A stretch of 64,000 bases of DNA from an uncultured bacterium (lineage in GTDB: Bacteria; Hydrogenedentota; Hydrogenedentia; Hydrogenedentales; CAILVY01). A model generated the notes under the pieces. It ran no database searches. It was not told the origin of the DNA and saw only the letters and a list, made by a program, of their open reading frames with translations. The number at the start of each line of letters is the position of its first letter. Position 1 is the stretch's first letter. Position numbers and translations under genes: made by a program. The DNA lies in contig CALEDJ010000032.1 of the NCBI GenBank assembly GCA_937951485.1, positions 1-64,000 on the forward strand, read 5' to 3'. Of this stretch, positions 50,464 through 53,531 are shown one piece after another.

Positions 50464-51018
50464 TTACGATTTCATAAAACGGGATAGTTCGGCTTTGGCT
50501 GCACGCCGTCCGGCATTGGTGATACGCCAGACAAGTCCGCCGCCGGCTTCCACCCAGCCTTCCTGTACCATGGCTTTTCTGGCGCGTAACACCATGACCT
50601 GCCACCGTTGAAACCGTCCCCCCGACATGGAATCCCGATCATTCTCTTTGAAAACCGGCGCCATGATCTTTTCGACTTCATCCATAAGCGCTTGGCGTTT
50701 TGCCTCGCCGCCCAATGCCTCAAGTGCCTGCAAAATCGGTTGATAAAATGACCACAACGGCGTCTTTTCGTTCTTCACCGGGCGAACTTTTCGTGCAGGG
50801 CGAAGCAAGTTTTTCCATTGTTTCCTAAGGGTCTCCACTTCCTGAATAAAGGCCTTGATTTCTCGACCACGGCGCGCCAGCGCCTCAGCCTTGTCGTACT
50901 CTCCGCGCATCATCAATTTTCCTGCTTGCGCGTTCAGCGAATCCAAGGCATTCTCAATCGTGCCAATGACGGTCTTAAGCGCTTTGTCCACTTCTGCAGA
51001 ACGTGGTATCACTTGCAT
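50464..51018 (-). CDS. Coiled-coil plus Mrr-N-like winged-helix protein
   Basis: 184 residues. Residues 1-75 are helical with heptad-like spacing (VDKALKTVIGTIENALDSLN, GEYDKAEALARRGREIKAFI), likely a dimerising coil. A basic linker (RPARKVRPVKNEK) leads to about 100 residues resembling the Mrr N-terminal winged helix (PF14338): PLWSFYQPILQALEALGGEA, MDEVEKIMAPVFKENDRDSM, RWQVMVLRARKAMVQEGWVE, then GGLVWRITNAGRRAA. In restriction proteins this fold reads DNA. No nuclease domain is attached here. Its ATG overlaps the end of the HNH/DGQHR gene by 10 bases, so the pair is co-translated and the nuclease is probably its partner. Confidence 0.72.
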   Translation of the reverse strand: MQVIPRSAEVDKALKTVIGTIENALDSLNAQAGKLMMRGEYDKAEALARRGREIKAFIQEVETLRKQWKNLLRPARKVRPVKNEKTPLWSFYQPILQALEALGGEAKRQALMDEVEKIMAPVFKENDRDSMSGGRFQRWQVMVLRARKAMVQEGWVEAGGGLVWRITNAGRRAAKAELSRFMKS

Positions 51019-52655
51019 TGGTACATTAGCCCCTGTTTTTCCTTGATCATTTCGTGAAGATTCAATCCTTCAGTAAGAATGCGTTGGCCATTGGTCGCCA
51101 CGCCTGTATTGAATACCTTATCCCAAAATTCCGGATTTTGCTTGGGGCCGAAGACAGTCGTGCTGAGATTCCGATCCACCCAACAGGGAAGTTGGCCAAG
51201 ATTACTGAGGAAAATCCCAATGCGGCACCATAATTCATCCGGAAGTTTCGTATGTAACAGGCGTTCCTTATCCACCATTCTTCCCGTCCACGAGAAGAAA
51301 TTCTCGATGACCAGACGAATCCACTTCACTGTAATGGTTACCACCTCTTCTCTGGCGATGCGCCATGCCCTCAGATGATATTCATCAATTTTTTCCCCTT
51401 TTTGAATTCTCGCTTCAAGCCGTCTCCCGCCAATTTCAGGGTCCCATTTGCCAACAAAGAAAACTTCGGCAAACAGGGACATTAATCGCACCATCTGCTC
51501 CCGTTCCAAGAACCGGGGATTTGTCCCCTGCTCAAATCCCTCATCAATGGGCGAATCAAGCGCCTTCTTATAAAGGAATTCCTTAAAGAATGTCTTCTCG
51601 ATGGTTGAGTAAGAAATTGGCCGGTTTCCCGTTTTTCCCGCCCACTCCACAAATTCCAACAATTTGTTTTCCGCGCTGTGCGTGATGTTGTCGCGTTGCG
51701 CATCAATGATATACCGTTCCATTTCACGACGTTCCCCGCGAAAGAACCGGACGAGGTCCTGTTCGCTGAAGGAAAGATCGTCTTCGGGAAGGCCGCGCAT
51801 GCGCCGGTATTGCTGCACGCGCTCTGCATACAAAGTGCTTCCCAGGTGTCGCATCACTGCCTGATCAAAAGCCACCTGACGAAGTTTTCCGCCCGCGTTC
51901 GTATTAGCCTGAAGCAAGACGTTAATGTTGGGTTCAACGAACACCCTCACCGGCAATTCACGAACTCCGAGAAGGATTTGTGCTGCGGCCTTATGCTGTC
52001 CATCAAAAAGTTTCAATGGGCCGCTGCCATCAGAATCTTCCGGCGCCCACCAAGCCAAGCCGACATGCAATTGAGGGCGTTTCTGGAGAAACTCTTCGAT
52101 CAGACCGCGTATGTTTGGACCGATGCTGCGCGGATTGATCCGATCATCATGGTGAAGATATTCGATTGGAAAACTGGCGAAAAAATAGTCCATACCGCTG
52201 AGTTTGTCAGTGAGAACAGGTGATTGTCGAATCCTGTTGTCACCGGATGCGCTCATAGAATATTGGATCGAGTCGCCATCACGCTTCAGACGAAGAGAAT
52301 ACTTCGCACCGCCGTGACGCTCAAGAACATCGCCGAGATTAGCGCCTCTTTTCCCGGCTTTCTGCGCTTCCTGCTGGAGTTTTTCAAATTCGGCAAGGCG
52401 ACGTGCGACACGAAGATCAGAAGCGCCTTTGCTGCGATTGCAACTGGCGTGCGTCAACGCGAAATTGTTTTCTGAATCCAGACCATCTTCGACAATCGGG
52501 TCAATGTGATCTATGTCAAGTTGGCCTGCATGCAGGGTAAGATCAACAAGTTCATCGCATATGAAGCACCGGTTATTCTGGCGATTTGAGAGACGTTGCT
52601 CCAATTCATGTCGTTGAATTTCGGTCAGTGCGCCGAGGTATTTTGACGCGGCCAT
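51009..52655 (-). CDS. HNH endonuclease fused to a ParB/DGQHR-like domain
   Basis: 548 residues; AGGGAGGA lies 8 bases before the ATG. Residues 25-80 are an HNH nuclease: Cys30-x-x-Cys33, DIDHIDPIVEDG with Asp49-His50, Asn64, His69, Cys72-Asn73 and Lys. A long linker leads to a ParB/DGQHR-type domain with the exact signature Asp218-Gly-Gln-His221 in KLFDGQHKAAAQILLG, plus LLQANTNAGGKLRQVAFDQA, recalling DndB and other DGQHR proteins of DNA modification and defence. The last 250 residues are unassigned alpha-rich sequence. The combination suggests recognition of modified or foreign DNA followed by cleavage, an inference. The Mrr-N-like gene overlaps its end. Confidence 0.8.
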   Translation of the reverse strand: MAASKYLGALTEIQRHELEQRLSNRQNNRCFICDELVDLTLHAGQLDIDHIDPIVEDGLDSENNFALTHASCNRSKGASDLRVARRLAEFEKLQQEAQKAGKRGANLGDVLERHGGAKYSLRLKRDGDSIQYSMSASGDNRIRQSPVLTDKLSGMDYFFASFPIEYLHHDDRINPRSIGPNIRGLIEEFLQKRPQLHVGLAWWAPEDSDGSGPLKLFDGQHKAAAQILLGVRELPVRVFVEPNINVLLQANTNAGGKLRQVAFDQAVMRHLGSTLYAERVQQYRRMRGLPEDDLSFSEQDLVRFFRGERREMERYIIDAQRDNITHSAENKLLEFVEWAGKTGNRPISYSTIEKTFFKEFLYKKALDSPIDEGFEQGTNPRFLEREQMVRLMSLFAEVFFVGKWDPEIGGRRLEARIQKGEKIDEYHLRAWRIAREEVVTITVKWIRLVIENFFSWTGRMVDKERLLHTKLPDELWCRIGIFLSNLGQLPCWVDRNLSTTVFGPKQNPEFWDKVFNTGVATNGQRILTEGLNLHEMIKEKQGLMYQCK

Positions 52656-52686
52656 GTGAACATCCTCCCTCGCATTCTTTCCCCTT

Positions 52687-52715
52687 ATTACTCAGAAATA
52701 ATATTGTCCTGTCAA
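52687..52715 (-). promoter_or_regulatory. Possible promoter of the HNH-DGQHR / Mrr-N pair
   Basis: On the minus strand TTGACA, 17 bases, AGTAAT. The -35 is perfect, the -10 is weak. It lies 15 bases after the stop of the HicA-nucleotidyltransferase gene, within a short AT-rich gap, so the HNH pair can be expressed independently of hicBA. Confidence 0.5.
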
Positions 52716-52730
52716 CGTGCGGCAATGCGT

Positions 52731-53531
52731 TTAATCCGTCTTCTGCACTTGTCCTTTGAGTTCATCGCTGAGCAGGTCCCAGAGATGCGGGTGTGCTTCG
52801 ACGAGGCGGGCGATGTCGGCGAGGTCTTTGATGCGTTTGCTTTGCCTGCGGGCGGGGTCCGTCCACGCGCGCATTTTTCCGTGGAGCGTATCTTCCAGGG
52901 ATGCGACGCGCATGAGGATGCCGTGGACATCGGCGGGGACGGCGCGGGCAGGGAACTCGCGGTAGAACGACTCGGTGCTGCATTGGATGCTGAGCGCGGA
53001 TTGCCCTTTGAGGTTTATGGACCACTCGAAGCGTTCCGCGTGAAACCCTGCTTCTTCGAGGAGTTTGACGGCGCGCTCGACGTCCTCCGCCGCCACAACG
53101 ATGTCCACATCCTGCGTGACCATGGGGTTCTTCGCCCAGTGGTTGACGGCCAGGCCGCCGATTGCGCACCAGGCAATGTCAGCCCGTTCCAGGCAGTCAA
53201 TAAGGCACATCACGTCGTTCGTGCCGCCGGAGGTCTGCCAATCGAAGAACTGTTTGGAAGTCACGGTACTGTGCCTCTGCTGGTTGCCATCGAACATCTT
53301 GCTTGTCGCCGGATAATGTTTTAGGAGTTCCTTGAACTGCCGGGGAGTCAAGCCTGCGTCCTGCGCAATGGCGCCCATGGTGAATGAATTGATGGGATTA
53401 TGGCGCGGAATGGTAAGCCTTATAACACCGTTGGACATTACAGTGTGTTTCCCTTCGCGCACTGTCTTATACCCGATCTTGCGAAATACGCGGACCGCTT
53501 CTTCCCAACTGATCCCCGGAATGCGTGGCAT
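52731..53531 (-). CDS. HicA toxin domain fused to a nucleotidyltransferase domain
   Basis: 266 residues. Residues 1-70 are a HicA/YcfA mRNA interferase: RIPGISWEEAVRVFRKIGYK, the catalytic His29 in EGKHTVM, RLTIPRHNPINSFTMGAIAQ and LTPRQFKELL. Free-standing HicA ends about here. A linker (71-108) leads to a nucleotidyltransferase of the AbiEii/MNT type: IGGLAVNHWAKN (Gly125-Gly126), TQDVDIVV with Asp141 and Asp143, and GKMRAWTDPARRQSKRIKDL near residues 218-238, where the family has K and R-x-K-D-x-x-D. Both domains keep their key residues. The ATG is one base after the hicB stop. Two toxin-type domains in one chain under one antitoxin is the striking point. Confidence 0.85.
   Translation of the reverse strand: MPRIPGISWEEAVRVFRKIGYKTVREGKHTVMSNGVIRLTIPRHNPINSFTMGAIAQDAGLTPRQFKELLKHYPATSKMFDGNQQRHSTVTSKQFFDWQTSGGTNDVMCLIDCLERADIAWCAIGGLAVNHWAKNPMVTQDVDIVVAAEDVERAVKLLEEAGFHAERFEWSINLKGQSALSIQCSTESFYREFPARAVPADVHGILMRVASLEDTLHGKMRAWTDPARRQSKRIKDLADIARLVEAHPHLWDLLSDELKGQVQKTD

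Follow-up and report, generated by a model that had tools for sequence, protein, structure and literature searches.

The question raised by this locus is whether two overlapping genes, here called A and B, work together as an anti-phage or modified-DNA restriction system, and what each of them would contribute. They lie in the window, the whole 64,000-nucleotide stretch of contig CALEDJ010000032.1 from an uncultured bacterium of the Hydrogenedentota. A preliminary description had assigned to A an HNH nuclease joined to a DGQHR/ParB-type domain and to B a coiled coil with an Mrr_N-like winged helix, and had proposed that recognition and cleavage of the target are split between the two.

The A-B locus

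The open reading frames, their strand and their 10-base overlap were as described (Table 1). So was the residue numbering of A (C30, C33, H50, N64, C72 and D218-G-Q-H221). The span originally assigned to the pair, 50464-52715, runs about 60 non-coding bases beyond the end of gene A. Three sigma-70-like sites were observed against 2.3 expected, which is no excess over chance.

Table 1. Features of genes A and B in the window.
Feature	Coordinates	Strand	Description
Gene A	51009..52655	minus	548 aa, HNH + ParB/sulfiredoxin-fold (FDGQHKAAAQ) protein
HNH nuclease domain of A	52371..52625	minus	residues 11-95; PF01844, 5e-7; H50, N64, N73; zinc C30, C33, H69, C72
ParB/sulfiredoxin-fold domain of A	51876..52202	minus	residues 152-260; structural matches to 3cyi and 6ryk
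FDGQHKAAAQ motif of A	51978..52007	minus	residues 217-226; predicted nucleotide-binding signature
Helical C-terminal region of A	51036..51863	minus	residues 265-540; no family model, no Pfam match
Gene B	50464..51018	minus	184 aa, helical hairpin + Mrr_N winged helix
N-terminal helical hairpin/coiled coil of B	50803..51000	minus	residues 7-72; AlphaFold model
Mrr_N winged-helix domain of B	50494..50757	minus	residues 88-175; PF14338; winged-helix fold matches
Overlap of A stop and B start	51009..51018	minus	10 bases; co-translated pair
Weak sigma-70-like site 5' of A	52698..52725	minus	possible operon promoter; not above chance

The GC3 was 0.52 for A and 0.57 for B, compared with 0.72–0.83 for the neighbours. 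Because their GC3 is lower than that of the neighbouring genes, A and B look recently acquired. No terminal inverted repeats or target repeats were found around the pair, and the probes tried detected no methyltransferase or restriction gene within the window.

A separate gene lies 75 bp upstream of A on the same strand (52731-53531, minus). Its single 266-aa open reading frame combines a HicA-like toxin domain (PF07927) with an AbiEii-like nucleotidyltransferase (PF08843); as toxin-type fusions go this is an unusual one, and its GC3 of 0.72 is native-like.

Predicted folds and conserved residues of A and B

The HNH domain of A exceeded the Pfam cut-off for PF01844. An AlphaFold model of A, built on an alignment of 46 sequences, had a pLDDT of 91 and a pTM of 0.80, and most blocks of the C-terminal region exceeded a pLDDT of 90. 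In the predicted structure, residues 11–95 resembled Cas9 HNH domains (Z 8.2, 81 residues aligned), and residues 152–260 (148-259 as aligned) resembled both sulfiredoxin with ATP (3cyi; Z 7.6, 94 residues aligned) and the ParB domain of PadC (6ryk; Z 7.3, 2.3 Å over 99 residues). The Foldseek E-values reached only about 1e-3 to 1e-2. Though the Z-scores are moderate, each half of A models as a fold of its own, both of them expected, and the motif is consistent with this. By its modelled fold, A falls in the ParB/Srx superfamily, with the signature motif predicted to lie at the nucleotide site. The HNH plus DGQHR/ParB-type architecture first proposed is thus borne out by the Pfam match and the model.

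All 65 aligned relatives share an identical FDGQHK motif, even the 17 with approximately 20-25% identity, and it lies within the ParB/sulfiredoxin fold, which dispels the worry that DGQH had matched by chance. Among the same 65 members, H50 was conserved in 64 and N64 in 63, and P175, R176, N251, A254, Q260, F263, R381 and E384 were invariant. The third HNH residue was N73 in 48 of the 48 close members, most of which also retained the zinc site C30-C33-H69-C72.

In 46 members of the family, Pfam recognised PF01844 in every one and HNH_4 in 37, and only HNH-type domains rose above chance. Searches of A against PADLOC, NCBIfam and PHROGs gave mainly HNH-local matches (Cas9, IscB, PtuB and phage HNH). 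Neither A nor B matched a curated PADLOC protein over its full length; the matches of A were confined to the HNH, chiefly those of Cas9 and PtuB, and B had one weak match (E 0.045). A kinship of A with Cas9 or IscB was rejected, the HNH domain alone being in common. Judged from these sequence comparisons, the A family is undescribed beyond its HNH domain in the databases searched (Pfam, NCBIfam, PHROGs and PADLOC). No description of its architecture was found in the literature searched, mostly outside subscription journals.

The Mrr_N domain of B scored 36.8 bits (4e-9) against a PF14338 gathering cut-off of 29.5, and the AlphaFold model (pLDDT 84) placed a helical hairpin before the winged helix. 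No nuclease motif was found in B. These results agree with the coiled coil and nuclease-free winged helix read from the sequence earlier. B also resembled an 800-aa protein of relatives, which turned out to be gyrase A and a chance match.

The A family is rare and widely spread

Single-sequence searches of genome and viral contigs returned no relatives of A, because the short exact peptides used were too strict. In plasmid and phage collections, tblastn gave HNH-local matches or nothing significant, and nothing full-length. The family was recovered with hand-made query alignments that forced DGQH into the pattern, in which the first row alone is a real protein; the hand-made rows were excluded from structure prediction. 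At least 75 loci were found with one genome per species across bacteria and archaea. Among the matches listed, about 50 loci were 40–71% identical, most of them full-length, and about 20 were 24–30% identical.

The tree of A covered at least 16 phylum-level groups, including archaea, and placed near kin in distant hosts. Because close kinship joins distant hosts in this tree, the sequences indicate that the family is horizontally transferred. The family is also rare, occurring in roughly 0–0.3% of the species sampled. It was present in 1 of 68 genomes of the window's phylum, where the other match was an HNH alone, and in 0 of 376, 1 of 391 and 1 of 397 genomes of three other phyla with the seed genomes left out.

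A recurs in restriction-modification operons

Among the matches listed, at least 22 of 73 loci had a restriction-modification (R-M) gene within 3 kb of A, a lower bound owing to short contigs. A was located between type I genes in the order HsdR–A–HsdM–HsdS (gaps 0–1 bp; L051, L061), between type III genes in the order Mod–A–Res (gaps 11 and 3 bp; L069), and after DrmD and a type IIG methyltransferase, with Mokosh genes or a DruE-like helicase next in line (L033, L041, L046, L063); further R-M arrangements were seen besides these. Among larger open reading frames, R-M-type probes matched 14 of 105 within 3 kb of A and 7 of 206 beyond; the probes were drawn from the same neighbours of A, and the comparison is therefore support rather than an unbiased test. 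The defence setting suggested for the window copy is thus seen among its relatives.

More than half of the sampled relatives had no R-M gene in reach. Other copies of A were single and lay between housekeeping genes (aconitase, valS, thrS, purH, recO, aroA, nuoL and pccB/pccA). Because so many relatives are without an R-M gene and some sit in housekeeping operons (pccB-A-pccA, nuo, valS, thrS), the R-M linkage of A is not obligatory. The earlier observation that no methyltransferase lies nearby is true of the window copy and of most of its nearest relatives, and fails for the family at large. Given the R-M-linked relatives, the proposal of a modification-dependent system rather than classical R-M was too strong for the A family.

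The recurring run of DrmD helicase, type IIG/DrmMI methyltransferase and A, then Mokosh A/B-like genes or a DruE-like helicase, may represent a hybrid defence operon.

B accompanies A in one clade

Of the ten members of the window's clade, six carry B immediately 3' of A, with gaps of -4 to +14 bp, and -10 in the window. The carriers are the window, Betaproteobacteria, Planctomycetota, KSB1, Myxococcota and Eisenbacteria. The five non-window genomes each have exactly one copy of B, beside A. In the remaining four members B is absent from the whole genome, and no B was seen beside A outside the clade among the loci found. Because the deepest member of the clade (L025) has B, the simplest reading is one gain followed by several losses. 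Most relatives of A occur without B, so B is an add-on to A and not its missing half. The conserved neighbourhood expected of the pair was therefore found in five further genomes, and the idea of a two-gene core unit does not extend past this clade. Homologues that never occur together, a chance DGQH or a known homing family had been named beforehand as grounds for abandoning the proposal; the genes do occur together, the motif is invariant and A was placed in no such family.

It is unlikely, in our estimate, that A and B are a self-contained two-component type IV-like (modification-dependent) system in which the Mrr_N domain of B recognises a modified base and brings A in for the cut. Mrr-type restriction proteins carry Mrr_N as their N-terminal winged helix, the co-translated pair is conserved in the six lineages, and the probes tried found no methyltransferase near the window copy, all of which speaks for such a system. 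However, Mrr_N alone is no proof of modified-base reading, most relatives of A have no B while many lie beside methyltransferases, and the distant solo relatives of B in the window's phylum have no nuclease near them. A division of recognition and cleavage between B and A is possible.

Stand-alone B-like genes of the window's phylum (L004, L005, L009; 22-27% identity) adjoin unrelated genes.

Comparison with known systems

Three known families and the Mrr proteins were compared with the pair. GmrSD is a functional precedent for A (PMC4619093). The GmrSD type IV proteins (DUF262 + DUF1524; GmrSD, BrxU) are defence-linked and, like A, combine a DGQ-motif domain of ParB/Srx fold with an HNH; NTP-dependent cleavage of glucosylated hydroxymethylcytosine DNA is characteristic of GmrSD. 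In A, however, the order is reversed with the HNH first, the HNH is PF01844 and not DUF1524, the motif is FDGQHK instead of (I/V)DGQQR, and there are a helical C-terminus and, in one clade, a winged-helix partner. Among 46 members of the A family, DUF262 (PF03235) gave no match at E<=1 and DUF1524 (PF07510) was not among the Pfam matches listed. An hhalign comparison of the A profile with 14 GmrS sequences gave a very weak 6.8%.

In SspE, the HNH nickase is controlled by GTP hydrolysis, for which the DGQQR motif is required (PMC9646914). SspE, a phosphorothioate-sensing GTP-dependent nickase, resembles A in this pairing and acts beside a DNA-modification system, but differs in domain order and HNH family. 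The neighbours of A are methyltransferase systems, and no sspABCD phosphorothioation genes were recognised among those profiled.

The DndB/DGQHR proteins (TIGR03187, PF14072) share with A a DGQH motif and, after it, a conserved motif containing N, and in A the DGQH likewise lies within a ParB/Srx-type domain. Alignment of A with multi-sequence DGQHR profiles by hhalign gave a weak 32–48% with DGQH in register, against 0.1% for a reversed-profile control, in keeping with the DndB-type likeness noticed at the outset. A nevertheless stayed under the threshold of both models and has an HNH, which DndB is without; a TIGR03187 search of the window's genome gave nothing. On these profiles and alignments, A would belong to neither the GmrSD, the SspE nor the DndB/DGQHR family. 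B has in common with the Mrr proteins an Mrr_N winged helix that passes the Pfam cut-off, and differs from them in having no Mrr catalytic domain and in its N-terminal helical hairpin.

DndB, a DGQHR protein, is a transcriptional regulator of the dnd operon (PMC4507180), and B is a small winged-helix protein. One could accordingly suppose that the main role of A, in the manner of DndB, or of B is to regulate transcription or to damp an R-M system, the HNH activity being minor or self-limiting. We consider this improbable: the HNH active-site residues, needless for a pure regulator, are kept in 63-64 of 65 members, and solitary copies of A have no modification operon to regulate.

A as a candidate NTP-gated nuclease

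The A-B pair is probably an anti-virus defence module. By analogy to SspE and GmrSD, the best reading of A is an effector that nicks or cuts under NTP control. We put the probability at about 0.55 that A is a horizontally transferred NTP-gated HNH restriction effector with B as a recognition or regulatory subunit. From fold, invariant residues and genomic context, we infer that A uses an NTP and cuts DNA, that B has this role and that the function is anti-phage. The ParB/sulfiredoxin-fold domain would bind, and probably hydrolyse, an NTP at the FDGQHK motif. A may then couple the sensing of DNA state (modified versus unmodified, or stalled or phage DNA) to nicking or cutting by its N-terminal HNH, as SspE and GmrSD do. 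In relatives, A plugged into type I, III and IIG R-M operons would back up or extend restriction as a second layer. In the window's clade, where A is co-translated with B, the likeliest role of the winged-helix protein B is to provide or tune target recognition, or else to control the operon. ParB- or wHTH-linked HNH proteins are classed as auxiliary restriction factors in a recent survey (PMC12839542).

More tentatively, A could represent an uncatalogued defence-effector family, an NTP-gated nuclease that plugs into modification systems unrelated to one another (type I, III and IIG/DrmD), of which one clade would have gained its own winged-helix recognition subunit and become an independent two-gene system. 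The pairing of ParB/sulfiredoxin and HNH (GmrSD, SspE) is a recurring route to modification-dependent DNA cutting. A also pairs the two, but in the opposite order and with an HNH of unrelated type, and it occurs within three classes of restriction operon. It therefore permits a direct test of whether one nuclease serves as a general second line of restriction and which signal opens it, and the window's A with its co-translated winged-helix partner is a small two-gene construct for such a test.

Single copies of A between housekeeping genes

In Extensimonas, A exactly spans the interval from the pccB stop to the pccA start, and pccB and pccA are adjacent in a relative without A. This exact fit, the HNH type of A and the single-gene insertions between housekeeping genes without a transposase would suit a selfish single-gene mobile element, a free-standing HNH homing-type endonuclease, yet such an origin is improbable: the sites and flanking genes of A vary from locus to locus instead of marking one fixed homing site, homing sits badly with an invariant ParB/sulfiredoxin domain and with the repeated insertion of A into R-M operons, and phage and plasmid collections gave the HNH alone while viral contigs gave no relatives.

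The pccB-pccA junction in relatives of Extensimonas (L099 and L100, positions 1371-1410; with L049) holds a 40-bp duplicate of the 5' end of pccA, together with the apparent tail of another gene. Such a junction suggests an insertion hot spot for single cargo genes. At about position 3256 of L085, a distant member of the A family overlaps the start of nuoL by four bases, beside a respiratory complex I gene.
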